From: an uncultured Granulosicoccaceae bacterium
GTDB taxonomy: Bacteria; Pseudomonadota; Gammaproteobacteria; Granulosicoccales; Granulosicoccaceae
Direction: 5' to 3'
Assembly (NCBI GenBank): GCA_937998875.1
Contig: CALLBO010000006.1
Location: forward strand, 28,098-92,097
DNA length: 64,000 nt
The notes beneath the pieces are model-generated. The model did not search any database. It saw nothing but the letters and a program-made list of their open reading frames with translations, and was not told the origin of the DNA. Shown in pieces: positions 19,834-47,215 of the stretch; the first letter of the stretch is position 1; each line of letters begins with the position of its first letter. Both the position numbers and the translations under genes were made by a program.

Positions 19834-20760
19834 TTATTCAGGTCGTACGCTGTTAGCGACAAACACCATTGCATCACCATCTGCTGCAACGTTGTAGGCG
19901 ATTCTCAATAGAGAAGTCCAGTCATCATCGTAGCCGGGGCTCATTTGCGCTTGTATGTCTTCAGGAAAGCCAAACAGTCCGTCGTCTACCAGAGCGCAGC
20001 TAATGAATATCGCCTCGTTGGAAGCAGTTGAAAAGCCACTGGTGTAAAGTTCTATGACTGAACCGGGTACATCGTTTGGTACCCATTGAAAAAATGTATC
20101 TACACTAACGTTTTCTCCATTGGCAGGTGATACCACCTGAAATGCAGGTACCGGTGGTACGGCAATGCCCGGGAATGCCGCAAACTGATCACCCGGAATA
20201 TTGATTGATAGGTTAGCACCGGCGCTTTGACTAAGTTCTGTCTCTGGCTGATAGACGGGACCGGACAGGCCGGTAGTTTGCTGTAGTGTTGCGTAAGTAC
20301 CGTTGTCATCGGTTAACACCAGTGATTCACCTGCGCTTACCAGAGTTGCAGTTTGATCAAGTATTAAGAACTCGTCGGTTGCTTCTGTGGCATTTTCATC
20401 TGCCGCGAGAGTGACGATACAGATGTCGGCAGGTGGCATATAAGAGTCTCTGACTTCCTGCTCTGTTAGTGTCTCGCTAAATTCCCCGAAAAGGCCGCGT
20501 GTTGAGTCTGCGGATACGCCGATTGGTTCGAGCTTAATAAGTCCCACTGAGTTGACGGTTCCATTGCTGGTCATGGATGTAGTAACACCGTCAAGACCAG
20601 TCGCTACCGCCGCGTCGTTGTCATTCTCTGAATCGTTGCCGTCGGTGTTGTTATCTGTGTTGTCACTACCGGTATTTGTTCCGTTACCGTCGATCGTCGC
20701 TGAATCACAAGCGATAAGAAAAGTGGAGATGAATATCAGGGAGAAAAGTTTTAATTTCAT
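19834..20760 (-). CDS. Predicted lipoprotein of unknown function
   Basis: 'MKLKLFSLIFISTFLIAC|DS' lipobox followed by an Asn/Asp/Gly-rich linker; no recognised domain. Confidence 0.75.
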   Translation of the reverse strand: MKLKLFSLIFISTFLIACDSATIDGNGTNTGSDNTDNNTDGNDSENDNDAAVATGLDGVTTSMTSNGTVNSVGLIKLEPIGVSADSTRGLFGEFSETLTEQEVRDSYMPPADICIVTLAADENATEATDEFLILDQTATLVSAGESLVLTDDNGTYATLQQTTGLSGPVYQPETELSQSAGANLSINIPGDQFAAFPGIAVPPVPAFQVVSPANGENVSVDTFFQWVPNDVPGSVIELYTSGFSTASNEAIFISCALVDDGLFGFPEDIQAQMSPGYDDDWTSLLRIAYNVAADGDAMVFVANSVRPE

Positions 20761-20848: not shown

Positions 20849-22648
20849 TTAGGCGGCTAAATTTGTAATTCCTGACTGTATTTCACAAAGTGAGTGATAT
20901 GCACCCTTGATTTTCAGCAATTCCTCGTGAGTTCCAACTTCAATAATTCTGCCTTCATCCAGTACGACAATACGATCCGCACTTTTGATTGTGGAAAGCC
21001 TGTGGGCGATGATAAACGAGGTGCGATTTTTTTTTAATCTGTCAAGTGCTTCAAAAAATAAAGCCTCAGTGGTGACGTCCAATGCAGATGTCGGCTCATC
21101 CAGAATCAGAATCGGCGCGTCTTTAAGGATTGCCCTGGCAATTGCCAGTCTTTGTCGTTGTCCGCCGGATAGGTCGCTGCCATGTTCGCTTAAAACTGTC
21201 TCATAACCCAGTGGCAGTTTTGACACAAATTCATGAGCATTAGATGCTTTGGCGGCGCTTATTATTGAGTCCATATCCGCATCCGGATTTCCATAAGCAA
21301 TATTTTCGGCAATTGTTAGTGGTAGCAGATACGCGTCCTGTAAAACCATTGAGATATTACTTCTCACACTTCTAAGAGTAGCTTCCTTTAAGTCGACACC
21401 ATTTATTTTTACCGTGCCATGCACTGGATCGTAGAATCTTGGTATCAATGACACCAGTGTCGACTTGCCAGATCCGGTTGTGCCGACAAATGCGATAGTT
21501 TCTCCGGTCGCCACAGACAGATTTACATTGTTAAGTGTCTGTTGGTCATCGGTATAGCCGAAGCAGATATCACTGAACTGCACAGCAGGAGTCGAGCTGT
21601 CGGTCATGGACGGGATTCGCGTTGTTCCAGAGTTAATTACAGACGGCACTTCATCCAGTACTTCAAATACCCGCTGCACTCTTGCAACGGCAGTTGCATA
21701 AGTCGAGGAAACGTAGGCGAGAACTTCAATAGGGCCATAAAGTGATGCGACGTAACTCAGGAATACCAACAACTCACCTAGTGTCAGTGTTCCTTTGAGT
21801 ACCGCGTATCCGCCAATCCACATCATCACGGCAGAGCCAATAGCGGTGGAGGAGCTAACACCGACGCTGAACTCCAGTTGTGCTTTGACTGATTTCAGAT
21901 AGTCCTTCTTACTGCGCTCACTTAGTTGTTTGAAATGATTGTGTTGTCGTTCCTCCTGACCAAATGCCTGTATCACTGGCAAACCGGTTAACGTTTGTTC
22001 CGCAAGTGACATCACTCGCCCTTCGCTTTGCTGATGGTCGTAGGTGTGTTTTGTCATGCGTGGCGACAATGCACGAATCAGAAACGGTATCGGTAACGCC
22101 GCGCACAATGCCACGAGTGTCAAAGTGGAATCTATCTGCCACATGATTAGAAACATCATCAGCAAGGTGACAGTAGAGGTGAGTACCGGCACAAATACAC
22201 CCAGAACAATTTCCTGCAAGCACTGCGTATCTGTGGTGACCCTGCGAATCAAATCTCCGCTTGGGTGTTTTCCATGATAAAACAGCGAGAGTTTCTGAAG
22301 CTTCCGCAGCATTTCCTCTCCGAGACTGTACAGGAGCTTTTCGCCAACACCGGTTTCAACCCAGCCTTGTAGCATTTGTACCCCGCGCTGTAAGATGTGC
22401 AACAGCAATCCGGCGACCGCCAGAATAGTCAGGGTGATGAATCCGCTGCTGAGAGAAGTTGTGTCTACGAGCTGGTTAAATTGCTCTGGCAATGTCTCGC
22501 CATGAAACACACTGTCGACGATCAATTTCATCGGCCATGGCAAAAGCGATGCGATAGCAGCACCGATAAATACCAAAACCATTACGAAGCTAATCTGGGT
22601 GTAGGAGGCTCCGAGGTGTGGCAGCAGGCGCTTCCAGATGATATTCAT
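20849..22648 (-). CDS. ABC exporter, fused permease/ATPase (MsbA/LapB-like half-transporter)
   Basis: TM region then 'GETIAFVGTTGSGKSTL', 'LSGGQRQRLAIARAILKDAPILILDEPTSALD', 'FIIAHRLSTI'. Confidence 0.93.
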   Translation of the reverse strand: MNIIWKRLLPHLGASYTQISFVMVLVFIGAAIASLLPWPMKLIVDSVFHGETLPEQFNQLVDTTSLSSGFITLTILAVAGLLLHILQRGVQMLQGWVETGVGEKLLYSLGEEMLRKLQKLSLFYHGKHPSGDLIRRVTTDTQCLQEIVLGVFVPVLTSTVTLLMMFLIMWQIDSTLTLVALCAALPIPFLIRALSPRMTKHTYDHQQSEGRVMSLAEQTLTGLPVIQAFGQEERQHNHFKQLSERSKKDYLKSVKAQLEFSVGVSSSTAIGSAVMMWIGGYAVLKGTLTLGELLVFLSYVASLYGPIEVLAYVSSTYATAVARVQRVFEVLDEVPSVINSGTTRIPSMTDSSTPAVQFSDICFGYTDDQQTLNNVNLSVATGETIAFVGTTGSGKSTLVSLIPRFYDPVHGTVKINGVDLKEATLRSVRSNISMVLQDAYLLPLTIAENIAYGNPDADMDSIISAAKASNAHEFVSKLPLGYETVLSEHGSDLSGGQRQRLAIARAILKDAPILILDEPTSALDVTTEALFFEALDRLKKNRTSFIIAHRLSTIKSADRIVVLDEGRIIEVGTHEELLKIKGAYHSLCEIQSGITNLAA

Positions 22649-24438
22649 GCGGCCTCCTTTTCAGGTGCTGTCGATTGCAATTGGATCATCTCGGCATAGA
22701 TGCCATTTATTTCCATTAACTCTGTATGATTCCCGGACTCTGCCACCTCGCCCTTTTCGATCACAATGATTCGGTCTGCATTACGTATAGTAGACAGACG
22801 ATGGGCAACGATAATTGTTGTGCGTCCCCGCATCAATTTACTGAGTGCTTCAAAAAACAGAGTCTCAGTACGGGCATCAAGGGCTGAAGTCGGCTCATCT
22901 AAAATCAGCACCGGGGCGTTTTTCAACATCGCTCTTGCTATAGCCAGTCGTTGACGTTGGCCGCCGGAGATATTCGCCCCCATTTCTCCAATCACGGTGT
23001 CGTAACCATTGGGGAGTTTACTGATAAATGCGGCGGCACTGGCGGTGGTTGCAGCACGGATGATTTCCTCCCGGGTTGCATCCGGTGTGCCATAGGCAAT
23101 GTTTTCAGCAACAGTCAGGGGTAACAAAAATGGATCTTGCAGGACAACTGATATTCTGTCTCTCAGACTTTTCAGATCGATGTCGTATATGTTTTCATCA
23201 CCGATGTAAATATTGCCGCTGTCCCAGTCAAAGAATCGCATGATGAGTGACGCAAGCGTAGATTTACCGCTGCCACTTTTTCCGACAAACGCAACTGTTT
23301 CCCCCGGTTTGATTTCGAGATTGATATTTCTTAATACCAGCCTGTTTGCCTCATAACCAAAGGAGACATTTTCAAAGCGTATACCAACTGGTTTGTGCAA
23401 GCTTGATTTAGATAATGCCCTTGCGCCCCAGTGATCGAATATTTCTTCATCCGCATCTAGTACTTCCAAAACGCGGTCGAGATTCGCTTCTGCGGATTTA
23501 ACATTTTTGTAGGTCAGTAGTAGAGACTCTGTTTCCCCCTGTAGCGTCTGCAGGTAACCCAGAAATACCAATAGGCTGCCGACTGTAATCGTGCCGTCGA
23601 GTACGCGTTGTCCACCGGCAACCAGTACTATTGTAAGACCTGCGCTGAGAGTAACGGCGTTTACGAAGGTAAAGCCGTTGTCAAACAATGAACTGACTTT
23701 GGCAGACTTTACAGCCTCACCGGATAAGCGCCTGAATTTTGCGCAGTTGGCCTGTTCTCTGCCGAAAGCCTGAACCAGCGGGATGGCAGTGATGGTCTGA
23801 TGGACAAACGACATGACTTTCGATTGCGCTTCTCTTTGGTGTTGCGCCCGTGCGCGTAGTCGCTCACCAAAAAAGATCGTTGAGGCGGCGAGGAGTGGTG
23901 ACAGCAGCAGCGACAGTATTGCTAAAAACGGATCTATCTGCCAGGCAACCAATCCGATGACCAGCAGGGTAATCAGATTCTGCACCGGTGTTATCAGGAG
24001 AGCCTGTGCTATTGTGAATACGCACCAGGAATCCACAGTGAGACGTCCAAGTGAGTCTGCAACGGGGTGCTTGGTATGGAATATCTTTGATAAACGCTGA
24101 AGCTTATTGAACATGAGCATCGAAAGATCGATCACCATTTGCTGACCAATCTTGCTCCACAACCAACTGCTTGCAACGCTGATCGCACTGGATAGCGCAA
24201 AAAACAATACGCTTGCACTCGCTGCTACAAAAATCAATACCGCCGGGCTCATGAAGTACAGATTGCTAGTGCTAACGATCGGTTGCTCGACAAGTGCGTA
24301 GTCCACCAATAGTTTGATTGGCCATGGCATTAATGCAGTAACACAAGCAGCCAGAAGTGCCAAAATCAAAAGCTGAACCAGGCCTTTCTTCTGTTGCCAG
24401 ATCACAGGGGTGATACTGCTGTAGCGATGAATATTCAC
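22645..24438 (-). CDS. ABC exporter, fused permease/ATPase; paralog of the downstream gene
   Basis: 'GETVAFVGKSGSGKSTLASLIMRFFD', 'ISGGQRQRLAIARAMLKNAPVLILDEPTSALD', 'IIVAHRLSTI'; overlaps the next gene by 4 bp. Confidence 0.93.
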   Translation of the reverse strand: MNIHRYSSITPVIWQQKKGLVQLLILALLAACVTALMPWPIKLLVDYALVEQPIVSTSNLYFMSPAVLIFVAASASVLFFALSSAISVASSWLWSKIGQQMVIDLSMLMFNKLQRLSKIFHTKHPVADSLGRLTVDSWCVFTIAQALLITPVQNLITLLVIGLVAWQIDPFLAILSLLLSPLLAASTIFFGERLRARAQHQREAQSKVMSFVHQTITAIPLVQAFGREQANCAKFRRLSGEAVKSAKVSSLFDNGFTFVNAVTLSAGLTIVLVAGGQRVLDGTITVGSLLVFLGYLQTLQGETESLLLTYKNVKSAEANLDRVLEVLDADEEIFDHWGARALSKSSLHKPVGIRFENVSFGYEANRLVLRNINLEIKPGETVAFVGKSGSGKSTLASLIMRFFDWDSGNIYIGDENIYDIDLKSLRDRISVVLQDPFLLPLTVAENIAYGTPDATREEIIRAATTASAAAFISKLPNGYDTVIGEMGANISGGQRQRLAIARAMLKNAPVLILDEPTSALDARTETLFFEALSKLMRGRTTIIVAHRLSTIRNADRIIVIEKGEVAESGNHTELMEINGIYAEMIQLQSTAPEKEAA

Positions 24439-25649
24439 GCGATGGCTACTTTGATTTCGGAATGGGATGCATAAAGATTTTCTAATAGCTTGTTCAGCAC
24501 TGGCTTGTAGTGGAAGTACTCATGAGTTATCTCCAGTGCAGCCTCGCAATGTGCTGTATAGTTCTGTTGCACCGCATCTAAAGCATGTAAAGCTTCCTCC
24601 GTATTGGAGAAAGGCAGCACTCCTCTATCAGAGTTCAGCCAGTTTTGAAATCCTGTGTCTTGTACAACAACAGGTTTTCCACAGGCGAGATAATTGATGC
24701 TTCGTTCGCTAAACCAGCCGCTGTGGCTCGAGACATAGCCATGCTTACTTATGCCAAACTCGGCACTTGAGTGCTGCAGGTAGTCGCGATAGCTTTGTAT
24801 AGTTTTGGTAACGTCCTGTGAGTCGCGCAATTTCCAGCCTATTGACTCGAGTTGTTCTCTTGGGGCAGAAGTACTGCCAAGCGCAATTTCGAGGTGATGA
24901 TTACATTGATCAGGTAACTCCATAAACTGTGCAAACGAAGCTGACTTCATTCCGTAGGTTTTGCCTTGGTACTCTCTCGCCGGGTAGCTGTCCCATTGTG
25001 CAATAGTGGTAAACTTGAATGTGTCTGTCTGGTTTTGATTACCGGACCAGCACTCGGGTACTACTGGCTGACGGGTTGCAATCCAGTTCAATCCATCAGT
25101 GGGAACTGTGCAGTCAGGTCGATTGATGTTCTCGCCGAAGCTCAAGTAGTGGGTGTGCAGCATTGCCTGTGCTGCAGCTTCGGAATTCTGTAGATGATTT
25201 AGTTGAGTAAATACCGGGTCGGTATCGATCAGTGCACGAATATCTATCTGTAACAGCCATTCCCTTAAGGGGTTGACCGCAGATAAATTCAATAGTAAAT
25301 CTGCGTTGCGGCAGTGGTCTATCGCATCTTCCGCTCTTGGGCCGTGCCATTTTTTGCTGTGAGCATCGTGGTAGGCCCAACAGTCGCCGATGCCAATTTC
25401 ATTAAAAGATCGACGCGCAAACTCCAGACCGTAAGTTGCATCACGACCAGTCGAACCTGTGGTGGGGTTGTAGCAGGAGTCGTAATCATCGCTGTCTTCT
25501 ATAAACGTCACTCTGTGCCCCAGTAATGACAATCCAAGTGCATACTGTAGATGATGCCAGGCGAGACCTCCCAATGGACCTCTAACAATATAGCCGAGTA
25601 CAACAATATTCAGTTCCTGTATAGGTGCTAATGATGCATTTACAGTCAT
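24435..25649 (-). CDS. Glycosyltransferase-like protein (CgeB/GT-B-like)
   Basis: 'VLGYIVRGPLGGLAWHHLQYALGLSLLGHRVTFIEDS' GT-B-like N-terminus; C-terminal 'GISKHGYVSSHSGWFSERSINYLACGKPVVVQDTGF' sugar-nucleotide-site-like motif. Confidence 0.7.
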   Translation of the reverse strand: MTVNASLAPIQELNIVVLGYIVRGPLGGLAWHHLQYALGLSLLGHRVTFIEDSDDYDSCYNPTTGSTGRDATYGLEFARRSFNEIGIGDCWAYHDAHSKKWHGPRAEDAIDHCRNADLLLNLSAVNPLREWLLQIDIRALIDTDPVFTQLNHLQNSEAAAQAMLHTHYLSFGENINRPDCTVPTDGLNWIATRQPVVPECWSGNQNQTDTFKFTTIAQWDSYPAREYQGKTYGMKSASFAQFMELPDQCNHHLEIALGSTSAPREQLESIGWKLRDSQDVTKTIQSYRDYLQHSSAEFGISKHGYVSSHSGWFSERSINYLACGKPVVVQDTGFQNWLNSDRGVLPFSNTEEALHALDAVQQNYTAHCEAALEITHEYFHYKPVLNKLLENLYASHSEIKVAIA

Positions 25650-26827
25650 GCTACTTGCACCTCACACACATTACTCGTCGCACGTTCGACCAAATTTGTC
25701 AGCACACTGGTGGAATTAAAATACGACTCTGCGATCTCTCTGGCTGCAGTGCTGTGCAACTTCGGGTTACTGCGAACGGACTCAATTCCGGCGAGCGCCT
25801 CGTCCGGATTATCAAACGCAATGACTCCATCCCCGCAAGGGATAACCTTTGAGAACCCGGTGTCCTGAACCACGACAGGGCGGGCAGAGGCCAGATAGCA
25901 TGCAGATCGACAACTGAACCACCCGGACCGGCCCTTGACATAACCTTGCTTGGCTACGCTCCACTCGGCGCGTGAGTGACGGATGTAATCTCGATAGCTG
26001 TGCATATCAGCACAGACTTCAGCGGGTGATACCAGTTTCCAGCCGGCAGCCTCCAGGCGTTCTCGCGGTGTTCTATTTGTTTTTCCCTCGTTTACTGCAA
26101 GCTCGAGTGTGCCTTCTGGCAATGAGGCTGGAAGATCTATGTAAGTCTTAAACTCTTCGTCTTTTTGTCCGTAAATTTCTTCGTTGTATTCTAGAGAGTC
26201 GTAGCTTGTCCAGTTCATCACAGTGGTAAAGCAATCTCTGTGGGATGTAGCAGGTTGCCATTCGTCCAATACAATCGGTTGCCTGGTAGGCAGCCAAGTG
26301 TCGCCGCTGCATGGAATGTTGTGGGATGGGTTTTCAGCAAAACTGAATAAGACATCATGCTGATCAATCTGAGCACGGAAACTTTCGTAGCCCAGCAATA
26401 GTTTGATCTGGGTAAACACCGGATCAGAATCAATAAATGCCAGTCGCTTGATACTCCGGTAGCGCTCTGGGTAAGCGAGACAGCCTGAAACGTTAATAAG
26501 CAGATCTGCGGTGGCTATTGCTTCCCTGCGTTCAGTTTCTTTCAGTCCGTACCATTGGTCGGTGTAGTCGTGTCTGAACATCCACCTGTCTTGCAGATTG
26601 AATTGCGCCATGACGGTATCCAGATACGCTACATTGTAGCTGCAACCGTCTTCGCTAAGTCCACCTGTCGTCGGGTTGTATGGCCAGAACCCGGTATCCT
26701 CAAGATAATAAACATCGTGGCCCATCCTTGAAAGGCCCAAAACATACTGAAGATAGTCCCAGGCGACCCCGCCCAGAGGATATTGGGCGATTAAACCGGT
26801 AACAATGATTCTAAGCCGTGAGTTCAC
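25646..26827 (-). CDS. Glycosyltransferase-like protein (CgeB/GT-B-like), paralog of the downstream gene
   Basis: 'VTGLIAQYPLGGVAWDYLQYVLGLSRMGHDVYYLEDTGFWPYNPTTGG'; 'VAKQGYVKGRSGWFSCRSACYLASARPVVVQDTGF'; clearly homologous to 24435-25649. Confidence 0.7.
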   Translation of the reverse strand: MNSRLRIIVTGLIAQYPLGGVAWDYLQYVLGLSRMGHDVYYLEDTGFWPYNPTTGGLSEDGCSYNVAYLDTVMAQFNLQDRWMFRHDYTDQWYGLKETERREAIATADLLINVSGCLAYPERYRSIKRLAFIDSDPVFTQIKLLLGYESFRAQIDQHDVLFSFAENPSHNIPCSGDTWLPTRQPIVLDEWQPATSHRDCFTTVMNWTSYDSLEYNEEIYGQKDEEFKTYIDLPASLPEGTLELAVNEGKTNRTPRERLEAAGWKLVSPAEVCADMHSYRDYIRHSRAEWSVAKQGYVKGRSGWFSCRSACYLASARPVVVQDTGFSKVIPCGDGVIAFDNPDEALAGIESVRSNPKLHSTAAREIAESYFNSTSVLTNLVERATSNVCEVQVA

Positions 26828-26869
26828 GAGCAGTACCTGTTTTTTGCCGGAGCATGTCTAAGTACATTA

Positions 26870-29557
26870 CTAGAACGTCCAGACAAACTTACCGGTGTAC
26901 TCGTCCTTGACTTCGGTTTGTTTTTGAAAAGATAAAAATACATCGATGCCTGAGCTTACTTTGCGTCTATAAGCCAACCGTAGTTGTTCAAAGCTGTCAC
27001 CCTTTGATAATCTGGCGATCACACCGTCAATGTTTGAAAAATCCCAACCCCCGCTCACGGTGGTTTGTTTAAATCGGCCAAAGCTGGTCAAATCTTCGGT
27101 AGAGATTTTCAGGTTGGTTGAGTTGGTCGGGTTGAACCAGGCGTAAGCTGACAGATATCGGTATTCGCCACCTCCAAGGGTTCCGTCTGCTGCAAATCCA
27201 CCGTAGCCGAAACGCGAGCTGTAAATATTAAAGTCGAAATTGGTAGACCAGAACCTGTCATTGTTAGCGGTATCCTGAAAGACACCGGGTGTACCTGTCA
27301 GCGGTCTGTAGTCGTAATCACTGTATGCAAACTGAAGGCGCGTTTTGCCGGATATTTCAAAATTCGCTGATAGATAGATTCCGTCAGATTGCTCTTCTCC
27401 AGCGAGAGTGTCTCGTTTTGTGTAAGTCACATCGCCGTTGATTTCTTTTATCTTACCATGGCCTTCTTTGTAGATACTGGCGTAAACTCCATTGGAACGA
27501 GTGCCGGGCAGATCGCTGTTTAAAAGTGCTGTAGGAGGATTATAGTCGGCGGTGTATTGATCATGATTAAAACCAATCTCCCATAAGTTTCTCGACAAGC
27601 CCAGTAACAACTTGCGACTTTTGGCTGTCCCTTCTGACTCGCCTAGATCGTTTTGAGACCATGCGTTTTTTACATCAAAGAAGATCCCCGAGCCGAATTT
27701 TTTATCTACTCCGGCGGCAAGCAGCGCGGCACTGGATTCTTCCTGATCACCCCTTACAGCGGATAGCGTTAAGCCTGCATTGCCAGGTAAATTTCTTCTA
27801 TATCGCGCATGAAAATCACGCCTGCCGTTATCTGAGTTGGTACTCAACAAGCCAAGAACGTTGCGATCATTTTGCATAAAGGTTTTCACTCCAACGTCGA
27901 AGTCTGGTATGCGCGGGCTATAAAAATACTCGCTGTCAGTTTCAAAGTTTGAATTACCTTCCTGAAAAAAGGTTCGAGTATCATCTACTTCTTTTTCGTT
28001 ATAGCTGAAATCAATATCTGATATCTGCGATTCAACCTGTGAAAAATCAGGAAACAATTCGACAAGACTGGTTAGATTGTTGAGCGGCTCGTAGCGTATC
28101 GTTACACCACCGTGTGCCGAGTGGTCTTTTGCTTGCCCTTCCCGGTTTATGGAGTTCTTAGCGGCAACAAGATAGGGCATCAAGGTCCATACACGGCTTG
28201 TCTTAGTCTGGGGTAGGGTAAAGCCTGCAAGGTAGCCTAGCGGATTAATTTGTTTCTTTGTTGTGGGTTTGACCCAGTGACTGGTTTCTTGAGTGCGATG
28301 TTGATACCTTGAGAAATTAATACCAAAGGAGTCAGCTTCTGGACTGAAGTTTAAAATTTCAAACGGAATGGCGATTTCGGCTGACCACCCATAGTCGGTT
28401 TTTTTTACAGCGCCGCGCCAGTCACCCTTCCATTGAATTTTCCTGTTGCCGCTTCCTGGAAGCTGATCATTTTTGGTGCCAATCGCATTCAGCGAGTAGA
28501 TGGCGGCAGTGCGATGATTCTTATAGGAATCTATACTTACCGACACTGCATCATCGGTACCTAGTCCACCATCCCGCAGCGTCTTTATAGCAGTCACCAG
28601 ATCGGGATTGTCATCAAAGCATCTGAATGCAAAGTATAAATATCTGTCGTCACTTAGCACCCTGACTTCCGTATCAGAAGACGGATGAATCCGCCGCTCA
28701 CTGACCCTGAAATCATTGGCGATCTCAGCGGAATGCCATGCTGCGTCGGTTATAGAGCCGTCAATTATTATTTCGTGTTTATTAGTTGCGCTGGTGGTGC
28801 GGAGGTTGAGTACCCTGCGCGCACCACCTCGACCAGGCAAAGCCGCAGCGATTTCTGGTTCGGTGCCTGCTAAAGCCTCGTTCGCCTTGTTTGGCTGTGG
28901 CTTAGAGACGTCTGGTTTTTCTGTGTATCCACTACCCTGTGTTATAAGATTGGAAGAAGGTGTTTTTGACTCTTCAGCGATAAGCTCGAAGTCAGATATC
29001 CCACCATCGCCTTTGATGAAAACAAAAGATATCGCTTTGATGCGATTTTTGGGTTCTATAAGTTTAAGAGCGTCGGTCAGGTTGCCTTTGATATGAACCC
29101 ACTTTCCGGCACTTGAGTTCGCGCCCAACCCAAAAGTGTAAATATTTCTGGTTGAGTCAATTTTGTTCTTTTGCGATGCAGTATAGGTGATCTGCCTTCT
29201 GCCATAGTCGGTATTGAGTATAAAACTAATTCTATAGTCAGATGATAGATTCATTCGCCAATTTGCAGTAAGGATATCTGACTCATTATCGACAGACATT
29301 ACGTCTTGCTTTGCGGACTTGGAAAATAACGTCGCTATACCATCGACACTAATCAGGCGAGTGCTTGCAGGAGTTTGGCGAACTATTTTTAACTTCCCGT
29401 CTGATCCCAATTTGCCGTGTTTCCAAACAGCATTTTCCAGCGCTGTCGAGCTTTGTGCAGTGTTGCGCTCGCGGCTATATACGTTGGTGTGGTATAAAAG
29501 CGCAGAGCTGATTAAAAGGCTGATAATAGCCATGCAAATTGATTTTCTAAGCAACAT
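26870..29557 (-). CDS. DUF5916-like outer-membrane protein with CBM9-like domain
   Basis: N-terminal signal; 'IIIDGSITDAAWHSAEIANDF...DDRYLYFAFRCFDDNPDLV' CBM9-like; long C-terminal region with barrel-like strands ending in 'GKFVWTF' (terminal Phe). Confidence 0.75.
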   Translation of the reverse strand: MLLRKSICMAIISLLISSALLYHTNVYSRERNTAQSSTALENAVWKHGKLGSDGKLKIVRQTPASTRLISVDGIATLFSKSAKQDVMSVDNESDILTANWRMNLSSDYRISFILNTDYGRRQITYTASQKNKIDSTRNIYTFGLGANSSAGKWVHIKGNLTDALKLIEPKNRIKAISFVFIKGDGGISDFELIAEESKTPSSNLITQGSGYTEKPDVSKPQPNKANEALAGTEPEIAAALPGRGGARRVLNLRTTSATNKHEIIIDGSITDAAWHSAEIANDFRVSERRIHPSSDTEVRVLSDDRYLYFAFRCFDDNPDLVTAIKTLRDGGLGTDDAVSVSIDSYKNHRTAAIYSLNAIGTKNDQLPGSGNRKIQWKGDWRGAVKKTDYGWSAEIAIPFEILNFSPEADSFGINFSRYQHRTQETSHWVKPTTKKQINPLGYLAGFTLPQTKTSRVWTLMPYLVAAKNSINREGQAKDHSAHGGVTIRYEPLNNLTSLVELFPDFSQVESQISDIDFSYNEKEVDDTRTFFQEGNSNFETDSEYFYSPRIPDFDVGVKTFMQNDRNVLGLLSTNSDNGRRDFHARYRRNLPGNAGLTLSAVRGDQEESSAALLAAGVDKKFGSGIFFDVKNAWSQNDLGESEGTAKSRKLLLGLSRNLWEIGFNHDQYTADYNPPTALLNSDLPGTRSNGVYASIYKEGHGKIKEINGDVTYTKRDTLAGEEQSDGIYLSANFEISGKTRLQFAYSDYDYRPLTGTPGVFQDTANNDRFWSTNFDFNIYSSRFGYGGFAADGTLGGGEYRYLSAYAWFNPTNSTNLKISTEDLTSFGRFKQTTVSGGWDFSNIDGVIARLSKGDSFEQLRLAYRRKVSSGIDVFLSFQKQTEVKDEYTGKFVWTF

Positions 29558-32141
29558 TCAGCACCTCCTCTGCAATTTCAGCGTCAGTGGTGGAAGCAGG
29601 ACTTATATTCATTGGGACCTCGGAGATATTTCTCTCGATCGAGAACTCTATTAGTCCTATTGCGTGAGCGCCTTCTTTAAAACAACGCCAACTGATCAGT
29701 GCAATCGCCAGCACGGAAAACACCGATGTAATATATGAGTCTGACGTAATTGAGAAAATTGTCGTCAGCGTCAACGTGCTCAGCAAGATGATGCTTAGCG
29801 GAGACCAGCACTGATTGGCTCGATATCTGACAAATTCGCTGTTTTCACCATGTTGCTCAACCATCAGGCGTAGCTTTGCAGACCCGAATAGACCACCGTA
29901 TACCTGCAAGTCCCAGTCGTCATAGTGATTTCCGGTGAGACAGCGGGTACGAGAGGAAACAAGCGTTTTGATGTAGTCAAGGCGCTCGATTGAGCTTTGA
30001 TATTTGCCATCCCAGAATCCACTGTTTCGGTATAAACTGCTTGTTTTGATTTTTTTTCGTAGAGTATTTTTTGTACCTAACGGATGTAGTCCGTTGCCAA
30101 TTCGACCTCTCAGCCGCATGACGGGTTGAGCCATGTGCAGCCCTGCAGTAAGCAGCAAGCGCTGAAGGTAGGCGATGGTCAGTTCAGGCTTAACCTGATA
30201 TTGCCCTTTGGCCGCGCTGTAGATTGCTTGCCCGATGTAGATTCCTGTGGCGAGTACGAGCGGTAACAGTGCCCAGAGCGTGCCTCCGAAAGTAGCCATG
30301 CCAAGTGCTCCAACAGCGAGCATCACAATGACGATTAGCCATTCGGGCATTAAAGGCAGACTTAATAGTTCGGGTGACTTTCTTTGATAGAGTCTCTGAA
30401 ATGGTGAGCATCCCCATACACCCTGGTATACGCGGCTGCGCATTTTAAGTAACTGTCGGGTCACTCCCTGCCCATAGAGTCTGCCGTGCCATATTACCTG
30501 ACCGTGATCGTTATATTTCTCTGGCCACTTTTTTTCGAGCATGGCTTCCGCTTTGCCATAACCGTATTGCTGCTTCAGGTAACCCTTTACCGTGCCTCGA
30601 CGGTGGTGCCAGTTGAAGGCTGCTGGCTGAAAACCAATGTCTCCGAGTTGTTGTACACGCCAGCAAATATCAACATCGTCACCCGCGCTTGTAAACTGCG
30701 TATCAAATCCACCAACGGTTTCCAGCGCGCTGCGTTTAAAAGACATATTGCAACCGGGAATATGTTCAGCTATCTCATCAGTTAGCATGACTTCCATTGG
30801 GCTACCCGGTGCGTTTGCCACACAATCGGCTACCAGTCCGTCGTCTGGGACCGGATAGTTCGGCCCGCCAACGGCAACAACGTCTTTTTGCATATACGTC
30901 AATGCTAGGTATCTGAGCCACTCACGTTCAGGATATGCATCGTCATCTATATAGGCAACTATATTGCCGGTGCCTGCTTGGTAACCTGTATTGCGCGCAC
31001 TTGATAACCCCATGTTTATGGTGCTGATTAGTTTTACCGGATAATTTTCTGCAATGACTGCAGTGTCATCGGTTGAACCGTCGTTGACGACAATAACCTC
31101 GAACGATGGATAGTCCAGTTTGGTCAGCGCGTTGAGCGTGGTGTCTATGGTTGCAGCACCGTTGTAGCTGCAAACAACAACAGTGATTGTTGGCCAGGGT
31201 AGTGACTCTCTGAAAGGCAATGAGGCAAACGCCTGCTTAACTCCATTAAGAGCAGGTTTAGCCAAACGATTGCAGGTTGTTATGCCGAACTTCCAGTCAG
31301 TGATGGTTCTTCCACCGACAAACCATTCATCTGTCCATGCATAGACAAAACAACCTGCCGCACCACATTCGTAAATCGCAGCTAACTGCCATTGTAAAGA
31401 TTGACTTTGTTGTAGTTCACCGTTTCGTAAACTATCCAGTCCAACTTCAGCAAGTACGAGAGGTTTGGTGGTAGAGAGGGTTTGAAGTCTTGCGAGATAT
31501 GCGCGCAGGTTTTCTTCATTCTCGAGATAAACGTTAAAGCTGTAGAAATCTACAAAATCTAAATTCAGAAATTCTGTGGTGGGGAAGTTGACATAGGTTA
31601 CCAGTGTGTTTGGATCTTCAGCTTTAACGATGTGATATAACGATTTCAGGAAATCTTCTATCTTTCTTCTGCCGTGCCATCGGACTACATTTGCCGGTAT
31701 TTCATTACCCAGCGAGTAACAAAGAATTGACGGATGGTTCTCGCAAGAGCGAACTGACTGTTTAAATCGATGCTTTATATCTTTCACCAGATCGGGATCT
31801 TCAAGGATAGCGATATGTTGTTCCCACGGTATTCCTACCATAAGGTAGAGACCGCATTCCAGCGCCAGATCCATTAACCAGACCGGTGGTACGGTGTAGA
31901 CTCTCACAGTATTGATACCAGCTGCCACCATCCGTTGAAAGTCTTCAGCAACGATTCTTGCAGATGGAAATTGATGACCGTCTAGATGACAGAACGTACC
32001 GTAGGTGACGCCTTTAATATAGAAAGTTTGATTGTTGAGCTGTAGTTGCTTACCGACAACGGCTGGCTTCCCTGCTGCAAATCCGAGTTTATTAAGCGTA
32101 CAACTGTTTGTATTACCGCGCAAAATACGAAAACCTGGCAA
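29547..32141 (-). CDS. Bifunctional protein: clan GH-A-like TIM-barrel glycosidase domain fused to a GT2 glycosyltransferase with TM segments
   Basis: N-terminal 'FYIKGVTYGTF...GINTVRVYTVPPVWLMDLALECGLYLMVGIPW', 'YSLGNEIPANVV' and 'LVLAEVGLDS'; then GT2 'ITVVVCSYNGAATIDTTLNALTKLDYPSFEVIVVNDGSTDDT', 'YIDDDAYPEREW', 'GDDVDICWR'; hydrophobic segments 'WLIVIVMLAVGALGMATFGGTLWALLPLVLA' and 'LSIILLSTLTLTTIFSI'. Confidence 0.85.
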   Translation of the reverse strand: MPGFRILRGNTNSCTLNKLGFAAGKPAVVGKQLQLNNQTFYIKGVTYGTFCHLDGHQFPSARIVAEDFQRMVAAGINTVRVYTVPPVWLMDLALECGLYLMVGIPWEQHIAILEDPDLVKDIKHRFKQSVRSCENHPSILCYSLGNEIPANVVRWHGRRKIEDFLKSLYHIVKAEDPNTLVTYVNFPTTEFLNLDFVDFYSFNVYLENEENLRAYLARLQTLSTTKPLVLAEVGLDSLRNGELQQSQSLQWQLAAIYECGAAGCFVYAWTDEWFVGGRTITDWKFGITTCNRLAKPALNGVKQAFASLPFRESLPWPTITVVVCSYNGAATIDTTLNALTKLDYPSFEVIVVNDGSTDDTAVIAENYPVKLISTINMGLSSARNTGYQAGTGNIVAYIDDDAYPEREWLRYLALTYMQKDVVAVGGPNYPVPDDGLVADCVANAPGSPMEVMLTDEIAEHIPGCNMSFKRSALETVGGFDTQFTSAGDDVDICWRVQQLGDIGFQPAAFNWHHRRGTVKGYLKQQYGYGKAEAMLEKKWPEKYNDHGQVIWHGRLYGQGVTRQLLKMRSRVYQGVWGCSPFQRLYQRKSPELLSLPLMPEWLIVIVMLAVGALGMATFGGTLWALLPLVLATGIYIGQAIYSAAKGQYQVKPELTIAYLQRLLLTAGLHMAQPVMRLRGRIGNGLHPLGTKNTLRKKIKTSSLYRNSGFWDGKYQSSIERLDYIKTLVSSRTRCLTGNHYDDWDLQVYGGLFGSAKLRLMVEQHGENSEFVRYRANQCWSPLSIILLSTLTLTTIFSITSDSYITSVFSVLAIALISWRCFKEGAHAIGLIEFSIERNISEVPMNISPASTTDAEIAEEVLNVA

Positions 32142-32479: not shown

Positions 32480-33400
32480 CTAAGTTAGGTTGGCTTGGAA
32501 GAGTTCAAGTGTGCGATCCCATGCGAGTTTTGCCGCTTCTTCGTTATAGCGTTTGGTAGAGTTGTTATGGAATCCGTGACCTGTGCCGGGATATAAATGG
32601 CGTGTGTACTCTACGTTGTTCGCTTGCAGTGCAGCCTCAAATTCAGGCCATTGAGCATTGATACGATCATCGTTTTCGGCTGCCTGTATCATCATTGGTG
32701 CTTTGATATTTGCAACACTGTCAGCAGGTGGTGCGCTGCCATAGAAAGGTACACCGGCGTGAAAATCTTCACCCATTTTAGTGGCCAGGAAATTCACCAC
32801 ACCTCCACCGAAGCAAAAACCTACCGCACCGATTTTGCCGGTTGAAAGTTCGTGTGATTTTAAAAACTCAGTGCCATTTGCCATGTCGACCATAATTTTT
32901 GCACGGTCAAGACTTTTTTGCAGTGCGCGACCGTCATCATCGTTACCAGGGTAACCACCCACCGGATATAAAGCGTCAGGTGCAAGTGCCAGAAAGCCTT
33001 CTACCGCCAGGCGGCGTGCAACATCTTCGATATACGGGTTTAGTCCGCGGTTCTCATGGACGACCAACACACTTGGGTAAGGGCCATCGGTGCTTGGCAC
33101 TGCAAGATAGCCCCGCATCTCACCTGAGTTGCCACCGGGAGAAGAGTAGGTGACATACTCTGCTTTCATACGTTCATCGGTGAAAGATATTGTTTGTGCC
33201 TGCGCGTAGCGCGGGAACAAAGCCTGGGCCATTGTTAAGCCCGACACCCCGGCCACGGTTATAGCGCCAGCACGCTTTAGAAACTCTCGACGACTGATGA
33301 AATCGTGGCAGTAGAGATCATATAAGTCATAGATGCGTTGATCAATTTCGAGGTCTTCAACATCTACTTCATGCTTTTCAGTGGTATTTGGTAGGTTCAT
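32480..33400 (-). CDS. Tat-exported dienelactone hydrolase-family protein
   Basis: 'SRREFLKRAGAITVAGVSGLTMAQALFPRYAQAQ' twin-arginine signal; 'VLVVHENRGLNPYIEDVARRLA', 'GAVGFCFGGG', 'YPGTGHGFHN'. Confidence 0.9.
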   Translation of the reverse strand: MNLPNTTEKHEVDVEDLEIDQRIYDLYDLYCHDFISRREFLKRAGAITVAGVSGLTMAQALFPRYAQAQTISFTDERMKAEYVTYSSPGGNSGEMRGYLAVPSTDGPYPSVLVVHENRGLNPYIEDVARRLAVEGFLALAPDALYPVGGYPGNDDDGRALQKSLDRAKIMVDMANGTEFLKSHELSTGKIGAVGFCFGGGVVNFLATKMGEDFHAGVPFYGSAPPADSVANIKAPMMIQAAENDDRINAQWPEFEAALQANNVEYTRHLYPGTGHGFHNNSTKRYNEEAAKLAWDRTLELFQANLT

Positions 33401-33559: not shown

Positions 33560-34042
33560 TTACTTTCGAAAAGAAACCCAGTAGCTCGCTTTGTGATCAA
33601 GAATCACGGCGACTGTCTCAAGCGCATAAGGGTTAAGCGGTACTTCATCTCTGTTAACCCATCTAATATCTGATATTTCCAGATTATCAATGCTTGTTTG
33701 TGGTGTGTTTGAGAGTTGATGAGTGAAAAGCACTTGTGTGGTCTTCAGGGTCGGATTAAATATCACACTACACTGCTGCATATTGTCGACTTTTATGCCT
33801 GTCTCTTCCCACAGTTCACGGCTTGCTGCTTCGTCCGGGCTTTCTCCCGGGTCGCAATGGCCGCTGGGAATATCCCAGTCATCTGCATAAGTTGTTTTTA
33901 CAGCCAGAAATCTACCTTCGGGGTTAGTGATAAAAACTTTCGCCGCAACCACGTAGCCTGGATAAAGAGTTCGCACAATTTTTCGTTGTGCGAAAACCGG
34001 CAGTCTTTTATACAGTTTAAGAGCCAGTGTTTTTAGGAGCAT
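33560..34042 (-). CDS. NUDIX hydrolase
   Basis: Nudix box 'GHCDPGESPDEAASRELWEETGI'. Confidence 0.9.
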   Translation of the reverse strand: MLLKTLALKLYKRLPVFAQRKIVRTLYPGYVVAAKVFITNPEGRFLAVKTTYADDWDIPSGHCDPGESPDEAASRELWEETGIKVDNMQQCSVIFNPTLKTTQVLFTHQLSNTPQTSIDNLEISDIRWVNRDEVPLNPYALETVAVILDHKASYWVSFRK

Positions 34043-34120
34043 GCGATTCTAGGAACATGGAGTTATATCAGATTGGGAATACAAAGAGATGCTTCAATTG
34101 GTGTGCCACGCTGGTGAGGG

Positions 34121-34744
34121 TTAGCTGCCAGTTAAGTTATCAATTTGATCCTGGGTGAGAATACGGGGATTCAGGCCGCGTGTCAGCAAATGCAGTTTGG
34201 ATGTTTCCTCAAGTTCTTCGGTGGCATACACCGCAGCTTCTAGTGTTTTACCCGCCATTACCGGGCCGTGATTAGCCAGCAGTACCGAGGTGTATTTACC
34301 GGCAAGCCCTCTGATGGCGTCACCAATAAGAGGATCACCCGGTTTGTGATACGGCACCAATGCCGTCTTGCCAACCTTCATCACATAGTAGGCGGTCAGT
34401 GGTGGCAGTGCATCGTCCGGGTTGGTTTCCGGTAGCAATGAAACAGCAACTGAATGCACCGAGTGCAGATGCACAACAGCGCCGCAGTTGGGAACTGTTT
34501 CATACATTGCTGTGTGCAAGGGTACTTCTTTGGTGGGTTTATCACCGCTGAGCGTATTGCCTTGTGCATCTAGCATACTCAAGTTGTCAGGGCATAGGTT
34601 GCCAAGCGAGGCGTTGGTTGGGGTGACGATCCACCCATCGCCGTGTTTAACACTGATATTCCCGGTACTGCCGGTGGTCAGGCCACGATCAAACAGTGAC
34701 TTGCCAAAACGACAGATACTATCTCGCAGCTGTACTTCATTCAC
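34121..34744 (-). CDS. otnC: Class II aldolase/adducin-family protein, OtnC-like (3-oxo-tetronate 4-phosphate decarboxylase)
   Basis: 'RGLTTGSTGNISVKHGDGWIVTPTNASLG', 'KEVPLHTAMYETVPNCGAVVHLHSVHSVA', 'LLANHGPVMAGKTLEAAV'; adjacent to otnK. Confidence 0.85.
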   Translation of the reverse strand: MNEVQLRDSICRFGKSLFDRGLTTGSTGNISVKHGDGWIVTPTNASLGNLCPDNLSMLDAQGNTLSGDKPTKEVPLHTAMYETVPNCGAVVHLHSVHSVAVSLLPETNPDDALPPLTAYYVMKVGKTALVPYHKPGDPLIGDAIRGLAGKYTSVLLANHGPVMAGKTLEAAVYATEELEETSKLHLLTRGLNPRILTQDQIDNLTGS

Positions 34745-36003
34745 TATGCAGTCTCCAGTTGCTGTAGAGCTTTTGCAAAGAAGTCTCCGCTGCCGAAGTT
34801 GCCGGACTTGAGTGCCATGGCAATCGGGTTGTCGCCTTTCGTGCTAAGTGTTGGGACACCCGGGTCTATCTCGGCACCGATGTCGAAGGCGTTGATGTTT
34901 AGCGCACTGACAACCGCACCCGATGTTTCGCCGCCTGCAACAACCATTCTTTTATAGCCTCTTGCCACCAGTTGGCTGGCCAGAGTTGCAAAAAAGGATT
35001 CAATCTTTCCTGCAACTGTATCGGTCCCAAATTCTGATTGCAGTTCTTTTACGACTTCCGGTGTAGCAGAGGAATAAACCAGAGCGGCACTGTCATCTTC
35101 CGGTAGCGAGTTGATTATGGTGGCTTGCGATATTTTGTCTGCCATTAACGTGTGGATATCAATATTAATTTTTGGGCCCCCTGAGTAGTGTTCAATCTGT
35201 TCTCTGGTCGCAGTCGAACAGCTTCCGGCGAGGATCACTGCAGGTCCTGTTTGTGGTCTGAAACTCTGGCCTGATTCAGACAACAAACCCTGCTTTCGAA
35301 AGTTCTCCGGCAGGCCAAGTGCGATCCCTGAGCCACCGGTAATCAATTTTGCATCAAGGCAGGCGCTGCCAATTGTGATTAAGTCCTGATCTGCGGTGGC
35401 ATCTACGATAATCAGCGTTTGATTGTCAGTGGCAGATTGCGTCAGTGCGTTTTTAACGGCCCCTGTACCTTGCGTTACCGTTGCCTGTGCAATGTGGCCT
35501 ACCGGATTTTTACATTGTTGTTGTAACCAGCGCCGGATATCTGCATCGGTCATCGGGTTGAGCGGGTGGTTCTGTAACCCTGACTCATTCAGCAGTTGAT
35601 CGTTAACGAATAAGTGCCCCTGATAGACTGTACGGCCGGTTGTTGGAAATGCCGGGCAAACCACAACGCCTGCTGTGTCCAGTTCGGCGGCGAGCGCTTC
35701 TGCCACCGGCCCGATATTACCTTCAGGAGTTGAATCAAAAGTTGAGCAATACTTAAACAGGAACTGGGTCGCTCCCTGTGCACGTAGCCAGGCCAGTGCA
35801 TTGAGCGACTGACGAATAGCATAATCGGCATCAATTGACCGGCTTTTGAGCGAGATTATCGCGGCTTCACAATCAGCCAGCGCATCTGCATCCGGAGTAT
35901 CAATGTATTGGGTGGTGCGCATACCTTCGCGAGACAGGGTATTGGCCAGGTCACTGGCACCGGTAAAGTCGTCTGCAATACAGCCGAGGAGGAGCTTGTT
36001 CAT
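34744..36003 (-). CDS. otnK: 3-oxo-tetronate kinase OtnK (four-carbon acid sugar kinase family)
   Basis: 'MNKLLLGCIADDFTGASDLANTLSREGMRTTQYI', 'FKYCSTFDSTPEGNIGPVAEAL', 'VVAGGETSGAVVSAL'. Start refined to M at 36003; the track ORF runs to 36120. Confidence 0.9.
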   Translation of the reverse strand: MNKLLLGCIADDFTGASDLANTLSREGMRTTQYIDTPDADALADCEAAIISLKSRSIDADYAIRQSLNALAWLRAQGATQFLFKYCSTFDSTPEGNIGPVAEALAAELDTAGVVVCPAFPTTGRTVYQGHLFVNDQLLNESGLQNHPLNPMTDADIRRWLQQQCKNPVGHIAQATVTQGTGAVKNALTQSATDNQTLIIVDATADQDLITIGSACLDAKLITGGSGIALGLPENFRKQGLLSESGQSFRPQTGPAVILAGSCSTATREQIEHYSGGPKINIDIHTLMADKISQATIINSLPEDDSAALVYSSATPEVVKELQSEFGTDTVAGKIESFFATLASQLVARGYKRMVVAGGETSGAVVSALNINAFDIGAEIDPGVPTLSTKGDNPIAMALKSGNFGSGDFFAKALQQLETA

Positions 36004-36294
36004 TTTGTTTTTCAACTTCTTTTGTTCTGCGCTTGGAGTCTGTGCGGTAGAAATCCGTGTAGCGAGAATGTGCCATGTCGAGGATGTTTTTGCGATCATT
36101 TGAGGCGCATAGTTGTTCATACGTAACGAAAATGATCGATGACTATCGCTTCCTTGGGCACACCGTCAGGGGGCGTTCGCAGTAGCGGACGTTCTGCCGC
36201 GCAGACTCCTGAGGGGGGAGCCCATCATCTGACAGTTGTGCAGTTTAATCGGTGATAAAATGGCGGCATTGATGACCCGTGAGAGTGCACCTGA

Positions 36295-38339: not shown

Positions 38340-40031
38340 ATGGCGGTAGCTGAACTCAAACCGGGTGTCTGGAAATCCGGCCGCGGAAAGGGCAGATCCA
38401 CCCCGAAAGGCAGGCAGCTCGATGATACTGCCCACACGCAGGTGCTGGAACTGCTGGCAGAGAGGCCCAGAAGTGCTGATCTGCTGATCGAGCACCTTCA
38501 TCTTATTCAGGACAAATTCGGTCATATTTCTGCAGCGCACTTGTATGCGCTTGCCCATGAGATGCGCTTGTCCCAGGCAGAGGTTCATGAAGTGGCGAGT
38601 TTCTATGCCCACTTTGATGTTGTCGGGGCAGATGAAGCGCCCCCGCCAGCCACCACCATTAGAGTGTGTGATTCTCTTGCCTGCGAACTTGCCGGGGCGC
38701 AGCAGTTGCTCAAGGCATTAAAAGACGGCACTGATCCTTCAGAGGTTCGCGTGTTGCGTGCGCCGTGTATGGGCCGTTGCGATACAGCGCCCACGCTTGA
38801 GATCGGCCATCGCCATATTGATCATGCCACTGTAGATCTGGTGACTGAGGCAATCGCAAAGAAAGACACGCACGCGGTGATGCCTGAGTTTGAAAACTTA
38901 AAAGCCTATCGTGATGCCGGTGGGTACAAAGAACTGGAAGCGCTGCGCAAAGGTAGTCACAGCGTTGATGAGCTGCAGGAAAAGATCAATGCTTCCGGTC
39001 TGCGTGGCCTGGGTGGTGCGGGATTTCCCTCCGGTAAAAAGTGGTCATTTGTGCGTGCTGAAAAAGGACCGCGTTACCTGGCAGTTAACGGCGATGAGGG
39101 TGAGCCCGGTACCTTTAAAGATCGTTACTATCTTGAACGTACGCCGCACTTGTTTTTAGAAGGCATGTTGATTGCCGCCTGGGCGGTAGAGGCCAGTCGT
39201 TGTTACATCTATATGCGTGATGAATATCCCGCGGTATTAAAAATATTGGCTGATGAAATTACAGCGCTGGAAGCAGCGGGAATCGTTGATGCGGGTTTTG
39301 TTGAATTAAGACGTGGTGCCGGCGCGTATATCTGTGGTGAAGAAAGTGCCATGATCGAATCGATTGAAGGCAAACGAGGCTTGCCTCGACACAGGCCGCC
39401 GTATGTTGCACAGGTCGGTGTATTTGGCAGGCCCACTCTGGTCCACAACATTGAAACTCTGCACTGGGTAGCTCGCATATGTCGTGAGGGGCCGGAGATT
39501 TTAAGCAGTGTTGAAAAGAATGGTCGAACCGGATTACGTTCATTTTCCATTTCCGGTCGGGTAAAGAACCCCGGTGTGCATCTGTTGCCGGCAGGATCAA
39601 CCATTGATGATTTAATTGAAGCGTCTGGCGGTATGCTCGACGGCCATTCATTCAAGGCGTATCAGCCGGGTGGGCCGTCTGCGGGTTTGCTGCCTGCAAC
39701 TATGAACGATACCCCGATGGACTTTGATACGTTGCAACCCCACGGTTCGTTTATTGGCTCAGCTGCCATTGTGGTTTTATCAGATAAAGACAGTGTCAAA
39801 GATGCAGCGTTGAATATGCTGCGTTTTTTTGAAGATGAAAGTTGTGGTCAGTGTACGCCGTGCAGAGTCGGGTGCGAGAAAGCTGTAAAACTGATGGAAA
39901 AAGATAAGTGGGACCAACCCCTGCTTGAAGATTTGTGCAACGTCATGGTTGATGCCTCTATCTGCGGTTTGGGACAGGCTGCACCTAACCCGATACTGTT
40001 AACCATGAAGCACTTTCCTAATGAAATATAG
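38340..40031 (+). CDS. NAD-dependent formate dehydrogenase beta subunit, NuoE-NuoF (FdsG-FdsB) fusion
   Basis: N-terminal thioredoxin-like [2Fe-2S] 'CDSLACELAG...APCMGRCDTAP'; C-terminal 'GLRGLGGAGFPSGKKWSFV', 'VNGDEGEPGTFKDRYYLE', 'GAGAYICGEESAMIESIEGKRG', 'ESCGQCTPCRVG'. Confidence 0.93.
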   Translation: MAVAELKPGVWKSGRGKGRSTPKGRQLDDTAHTQVLELLAERPRSADLLIEHLHLIQDKFGHISAAHLYALAHEMRLSQAEVHEVASFYAHFDVVGADEAPPPATTIRVCDSLACELAGAQQLLKALKDGTDPSEVRVLRAPCMGRCDTAPTLEIGHRHIDHATVDLVTEAIAKKDTHAVMPEFENLKAYRDAGGYKELEALRKGSHSVDELQEKINASGLRGLGGAGFPSGKKWSFVRAEKGPRYLAVNGDEGEPGTFKDRYYLERTPHLFLEGMLIAAWAVEASRCYIYMRDEYPAVLKILADEITALEAAGIVDAGFVELRRGAGAYICGEESAMIESIEGKRGLPRHRPPYVAQVGVFGRPTLVHNIETLHWVARICREGPEILSSVEKNGRTGLRSFSISGRVKNPGVHLLPAGSTIDDLIEASGGMLDGHSFKAYQPGGPSAGLLPATMNDTPMDFDTLQPHGSFIGSAAIVVLSDKDSVKDAALNMLRFFEDESCGQCTPCRVGCEKAVKLMEKDKWDQPLLEDLCNVMVDASICGLGQAAPNPILLTMKHFPNEI

Positions 40032-40072
40032 CCAAGCTAATTATAATCAGGCGAAATATAAAGGGTTCGGTC

Positions 40073-42847: not shown

Positions 42848-42931
42848 CTTGCTTGTTATACATAAAACAAGTTAGCCCCATACGTTGGCTAGCAATGATA
42901 AATCACCACACACGAGACACAGGAAAATCCA

Positions 42932-44608: not shown

Positions 44609-44649
44609 GCTTTTGAGTGCATGCAGCGCTCACCTGGCGCTTAACGCCA

Positions 44650-44671
44650 ACCCTCCCACATGCGGGAGGGT
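44650..44671. terminator. GC-rich hairpin after fhs
   Basis: ACCCTCCC-ACATGC-GGGAGGGT, perfect 8-bp stem; no U tract. Confidence 0.4.
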
Positions 44672-44765
44672 AAACTGGATCACTCTCTGAATTTCCAGCG
44701 AACACCTGAGAGAGACCTTCCACACTTATTCCTAAAACCCGAACTATCATGGATAAATCTGATTA

Positions 44766-46358: not shown

Positions 46359-46366
46359 ATCGCGCG

Positions 46367-47131: not shown

Positions 47132-47215
47132 TCAAATATGGCCCTGCTTGTTGTCATTGTAGTCTTCCTGCGAGACAATTGTGACAACTTACCTGACTAC
47201 TGTTGGCAGAGATTT

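Follow-up and report, generated by a model that had tools for sequence, protein, structure and literature searches.

The ChvA/NdvA exporter of cyclic β-1,2-glucan is MsbA-like, and proteins that combine DUF5916 and CBM9 are common in Bacteroidota. The cyclic β-1,2-glucan synthase Cgs is a single membrane protein with cytosolic soluble domains that both makes and processes the chain, and its product is then taken over by a dedicated transporter (PMC10901819). In the Orphan/NdvB cyclic glucan synthases of pseudomonads, which are GH17-GT2 proteins, modelling places the glycoside hydrolase (GH) domain GH17 in the periplasm, following a signal peptide and transmembrane helices (PMC10237404). Here we analysed a six-gene cassette in a 64,000-nucleotide stretch (the window) of contig CALLBO010000006.1 from an uncultured Granulosicoccaceae bacterium, which encodes a fusion of a GH barrel with a family 2 glycosyltransferase (GT2), a probable outer-membrane protein, two GT-B glycosyltransferases and two MsbA-type ATP-binding cassette (ABC) exporters. 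Our analysis favors, with a probability of roughly 0.6, a cytosol-first pathway in which a glycan or glycolipid would be finished in the cytosol before a dedicated ABC transporter exports it.

An earlier interpretation made from the letters of the window (the sequence-only reading) had described six genes with their domains; the open reading frame (ORF) check reproduced all coordinates, strands and junctions exactly, and Pfam confirmed the GH, GT2, CBM9/DUF5916, two GT-B and two ABC calls. The genes are packed head-to-tail as follows.

29547..32141, minus strand: GH-GT2 fusion, 864 aa, TTG start (ORF and Pfam)
26870..29557, minus strand: probable outer-membrane protein, CBM9 and DUF5916-related, 895 aa (ORF and Pfam)
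25646..26827, minus strand: predicted GT-B glycosyltransferase 1 (GTB1), 393 aa, GTG start (weak PF13524 match and model)
24435..25649, minus strand: predicted GT-B glycosyltransferase 2 (GTB2), 404 aa (PF13524 match and identity to GTB1)
22645..24438, minus strand: MsbA-type ABC exporter 1, 597 aa, GTG start (ABC_membrane and ABC_tran)
20849..22648, minus strand: MsbA-type ABC exporter 2, 599 aa (ABC_membrane and ABC_tran)

The cassette resembles the Cgs/ChvA system in that a GT2-like synthase and chain-processing domains are joined in one membrane protein and ABC export follows. The families differ, since Cgs has GT84, a cyclase and GH94 whereas the cassette has GT2 and a GH2-type barrel, adds two GT-B enzymes and an outer-membrane protein, and has exporters scoring about half of the ChvA cut-off (TIGR01192; 276 and 304 bits against 585). 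Assignment to Cgs/ChvA was rejected, as Pfam found only GT2-type, Glyco_hydro_2_C and weak GH72 matches and the ChvA cut-off was missed. With the NdvB/Orphan synthases the fusion shares a GH TIM barrel N-terminal to GT2 in one protein, but the GH match is of the GH2 type instead of GH17 and no transmembrane helix was found ahead of GT2 or anywhere before residue ~600, so that this assignment was also rejected. The exporter architecture is common to MsbA, PglK and HepA, but the cassette exporters scored under the curated cut-off of every one of these models and have other gene partners; they were not accepted as members of MsbA (TIGR02203 equivalog; 405 and 448 bits against 602) or PglK (NF050066; 207 and 202 bits against 1000). 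The outer-membrane protein follows the DUF5916/CBM9 plan of CBM9, then an N-terminal DUF5916 part and a long strand-rich C-terminus, and differs in that only about the first 94 of the 572 DUF5916 positions match and in having an extra N-terminal β-sandwich. The sequence-only reading saw no match to the standard exopolysaccharide routes. This needs one correction: the cassette is not outside all known logic, because cyclic β-1,2-glucan is also made and processed in the cytosol and then exported by an ABC transporter, although none of the families of that system is present in the cassette.

The four-gene core and the Granulosicoccaceae cassette

A scan with the GT-B protein alignment over one genome per species (84,980 species) yielded 44 loci in 40 genomes, and a full fusion was found as a strong genome-wide match in 39 of the 40. 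The fusion lay within reach in 26 of the 44 loci, many of the others being short contigs, and 23 of those 26 also contained an ABC gene. The usual order, on a single strand, was fusion, ABC and one to five GT-B genes. Of 274 genomes from the class to which the window belongs, two carried both fusion and GT-B and the rest neither (Fisher p 2.7e-5), and in a separate sample of 399 genomes either family occurred only in the window's own genome. To avoid the bias of a GT-B query, the phylum Nitrospirota (246 genomes) was searched with the fusion alone, which was found in five genomes; all three previously unseen loci read fusion-ABC-GT-B. The neighborhood search that had been proposed as a check was thereby run, and its outcome is a unit of fusion, ABC, GTB1 and GTB2 across phyla, while the co-occurrence of all six families was seen within Granulosicoccaceae only. 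The core is present in at least 12 phyla (Nitrospirota, Bacteroidota, Verrucomicrobiota, Planctomycetota, Cyanobacteriota, Gemmatimonadota, Acidobacteriota, Actinomycetota, Chloroflexota, Myxococcota, Omnitrophota and Binatota), of which single assignments may be wrong because most carriers are metagenome bins; the carriers also include isolates of Pleomorphovibrio, Terrimonas, Microcoleus and Desulfoferrobacter. On plasmids, tblastn with GTB1 gave no match, and tblastn with the fusion gave only partial GT2-domain matches and no record at 80% coverage.

The two GT-B proteins differed in their PF13524 scores, which were 27.5 for GTB2 and 18.2 for GTB1 at a cut-off of 25. The AlphaFold model of GTB1 had a predicted local distance difference test (pLDDT) score of 93, and its best PDB matches were GT-B, GT4-like glycosyltransferases (E 5.5e-10), including the PimA and MshA types; GTB1 is thus predicted to have a GT-B fold nearest to GT4-type retaining enzymes, and GTB2, which is 39% identical to it, would share the fold. 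In the tree, GTB1 and GTB2 fell into two separate multi-phylum clades (support 100/100 and 100/97), and the possession of both is therefore either ancient or transferred as a set.

Genes recurring next to the core in other phyla encode UDP-glucose dehydrogenase, NAD epimerase, pyruvyl-transferase-like protein, YdjC deacetylase, GT4, GT2, methyltransferase and an APH-like kinase family, and by their predicted families these neighbors suggest a heteroglycan with decorations more than a simple glucan. In loci from Actinomycetota and Chloroflexota (L042:135-3297 and L050:3892-8751), APH-like kinase genes stand in runs beside the core. A family of ~590 residues lies downstream of the core in 8 loci (for example L026:18917-20671, L017:13654-15432 and L019:13935-15710); it has many invariant Asp, His and Trp residues, and neither a Pfam match above cut-off nor a PDB relative by profile was found for it.

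The closest relatives of the locus are bins of Granulosicoccaceae, and four further loci of this family (L011, L012, L013 and L015) have the identical six-gene order with similarly tight junctions, while their flanks contain no gene matching any gene of the 64 kb window. Given this gene-for-gene conservation between unrelated flanks, the six genes form one selected cassette. The proteins of the window and of L011, its nearest relative, were 73% to 91% identical, and the ratio of nonsynonymous to synonymous substitution rates (dN/dS) between the two cassettes was 0.04-0.09, a rough value because dS is near saturation. ABC exporters and glycosyltransferases are abundant, and common glycan and transport genes might have come together by chance with no joint function, but the strict cross-phylum co-occurrence and order, together with the conservation between unrelated flanks in five genomes, make such a chance cluster hardly credible. 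The cassette was present in 6 of 48 genomes of the window's family, a patchy distribution that fits loss or transfer; a horizontal island by composition was unsupported, as the GC content of the block (0.46-0.49) is that of its surroundings.

From gene 1 to gene 6, the junctions consist of an 11-base overlap, a 42-bp gap and three overlaps of 4 bases each. The size of the first overlap hinges on the start chosen for the outer-membrane protein gene, and the TTG start of the fusion gene, which has no evident ribosome-binding site, may be misplaced. At the locus, an Rfam search for regulatory RNA gave no match, and promoter and terminator scans scored no better than shuffled sequence. The adjoining lipoprotein gene (19834-20760) and dienelactone-hydrolase-like gene (32480-33400) were rejected as members of the cluster, as neither has a homologue in the four conserved relatives. 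In one of these (L015:3704-8416), the CBM9 stretch is missing from the outer-membrane protein and GTB2 is broken into three ORFs, which reflects either decay or an assembly error. Upstream on the same strand, window positions 33560-36120 contain Nudix-like, class II aldolase-like and acid-sugar-kinase-like genes, which judged by sequence resemble a group for acid-sugar catabolism that has no relation to the cassette. Positions 38340-48511 group formate-dehydrogenase-like flavin mononucleotide/iron-sulfur (FMN/Fe-S) and molybdopterin subunits, a formate-tetrahydrofolate ligase and a MobA-like NTP-transferase protein.

Predicted active site and placement of the GH-GT2 fusion

In the fusion, Pfam assigned a GH2-type TIM barrel to residues 28-258 and GT2 to residues 320-476, with a weak GH72 match, and the full domains extend over ~28-300 (clan A GH barrel) and ~315-545 (GT2). 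Residues E147, in an NE motif, and E232 were invariant in all 15 fusion sequences and lined up with NE and E-x-G in GH2-type structures, as expected for clan GH-A; they are predicted to be the catalytic pair of a clan-A retaining-type GH. The GT2 motif residues D354, D399, D401, D488-D489-V490-D491, R515 and Q524-Q525 were also invariant. The GH profile was nearest to two PDB sequences annotated as GH2 catalytic domains, followed by glucuronidases, a galacturonidase and galactosidases, and it matched 1,3-β-glucanosyltransferase structures weakly. For 9fz9, the nearest PDB relative, our literature search found no paper.

A hydropathy scan of the window's fusion, which is a crude method for topology, found no span before residue ~600 and four transmembrane helices in the C-terminal part, at ~602-640 and ~782-821. 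Since no span precedes GT2 and all four follow it, the GH and GT2 domains would lie on a shared cytosolic side, and both synthesis and editing of the chain are suggested to be cytosolic. A GH that is cytosolic like GT2 would work ahead of export and not on a chain already exported.

The domain logic and this cytosolic placement recall Cgs with its exporter (PMC10901819), and the domain arrangement resembles the GH17-GT2 Orphan/NdvB proteins (PMC10237404). Together with the weak GH72 glucanosyltransferase match and with exporters that match glucan ABC models below cut-off, this raises the alternative of a β-glucan system, in which GT2 would make a homopolymer, the GH would cyclize or cut it by transglycosylation, the GT-B enzymes would decorate it, and the ABC transporter would deliver an osmoprotective glucan to the periplasm. 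We regard this as quite improbable, as the best GH matches are GH2 enzymes (glucuronidases and galactosidases), not GH72 or GH17, and as up to five GT-B paralogues and the UDP-glucose dehydrogenase or pyruvylation genes at other loci suggest a heteroglycan.

The exporter pair and the probable outer-membrane protein

Read from the sequence, both exporters retain Walker A, the signature motif, the Walker B glutamate and the H-loop, and thus neither is an obviously dead subunit. The core ABC genes of all loci grouped in a single clade (100/99) that excluded nine other exporters from the window's genome, and the two Granulosicoccaceae exporters were sisters inside it (97/96). By this placement the pair arose through duplication of one core exporter in this lineage, all other loci seen having a single one. 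The paired transporter described earlier is thus present with its motifs intact, but the pairing is local.

The outer-membrane protein contains CBM9_1 at residues 265-435 and a DUF5916 match (33.8 against a cut-off of 22.6) that covers only positions 6-99 of 572. It has a signal-peptide-like hydrophobic N-terminus, about 20 long strands and a C-terminal Phe (KFVWTF). Its model had a pLDDT of only 54, with Foldseek matches to LptD, TonB-dependent receptors and ushers, and the protein is a probable outer-membrane β-barrel. The N-terminal β-sandwich (window 28970-29449, residues 37-196) has no Pfam match, was seen only in Granulosicoccaceae copies and may be a further carbohydrate-binding module. 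Weak Foldseek matches of the low-confidence model to glucuronyl C5-epimerase domains were also observed. A DUF5916-type protein occurred in 6 of 26 loci, namely four from Granulosicoccaceae, one from another gammaproteobacterium and one from Omnitrophota, and a test of the Nitrospirota and cyanobacterial carriers did not find it anywhere in their genomes. By its distribution it is an optional, lineage-specific outer-membrane addition to the core. The barrel proposed by the sequence-only reading agrees with the signal peptide, strands and Foldseek matches, and is weakened by the model confidence and the partial DUF5916 match.

A proposed cytosol-first pathway and its meaning

In the proposed pathway, the membrane-anchored GT2 would start or extend a chain at the inner face of the inner membrane, and the attached GH barrel, facing the same compartment, would trim or transfer the chain, with length control or branching as the possible result of a retaining hydrolase or transglycosylase. 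Two soluble GT-B enzymes would attach more sugars, and the finished oligosaccharide, free or lipid-anchored, would cross the inner membrane through the MsbA-type exporter, which as a consequence of its duplication here would work as a heterodimer or as two homodimers. In this lineage, the CBM9/β-barrel-like outer-membrane protein may bind, pass or display the glycan. The pathway builds on the observed gene content and order, conservation, invariant catalytic residues and common exporter clade. The dedicated glycan assembly and export unit suggested earlier gains from the co-occurrence and the sugar-modifying neighbors; the order of the enzymatic steps, a glycan as the ABC substrate, for which the gene linkage speaks, and the receiving or passing role at the outer membrane are what we infer.

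Several points weigh against this pathway. The locus contains no initiating sugar-phosphate transferase or lipid-carrier enzyme, and the substrates of such ABC exporters can also be lipids, drugs or peptides. Confidence in the outer-membrane model is low, and the absence of its gene in most relatives makes its coupling to export only local.

A glycolipid pathway was also weighed, in which a membrane lipid (diacylglycerol, hopanoid or polyprenyl phosphate) would receive its first sugar from GT2, its head group would be extended by the GT-B pair, the ABC transporter would flip the lipid like MsbA or PglK, and the GH would only edit or recycle failed products, with no free or long polysaccharide. 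It draws on the membrane anchor of GT2, the lack of a polymerase or chain-length gene at the locus by Pfam, the PimA and MshA types among the GT4-like matches, and exporters whose top scores are with MsbA and MsbA-related models. These scores stay under the MsbA and PglK curated cut-offs, however, polysaccharide-type modifiers recur at other loci, and the CBM9 outer-membrane protein of this lineage suits a glycan better than a lipid head group; we therefore consider the glycolipid pathway rather unlikely.

Under the cytosol-first pathway, the cassette would belong among the ABC-exported glycan pathways, and there is a fair chance that its core deserves its own name. In our literature search, which covered DUF5916, GH-GT2 fusions and clusters of this kind, no paper was found that describes the core as a pathway. 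Tentatively, fusion, ABC, GTB1 and GTB2 could constitute an undescribed, phylum-crossing glycan class with cytosolic synthesis and editing and MsbA-type export. This route might be distinct from the Wzx/Wzy, KpsMT-type ABC, synthase-dependent and cyclic-glucan systems, and it is conceivable that this gammaproteobacterial lineage has added to it an outer-membrane partner of its own and a further copy of the exporter.

With the cassette, a surface or secreted glycan that apparently has no name yet and is shared by many mostly uncultivated phyla gains a defined and portable set of genes, and the isolate genomes offer experimental handles on it. The analysis also gives an anonymous GT-B family and a DUF5916-type outer-membrane protein a suggested role, and the invariant hydrolase site beside the synthase, apparently in the cytosol, raises the testable question of why a chain would be edited before its export.

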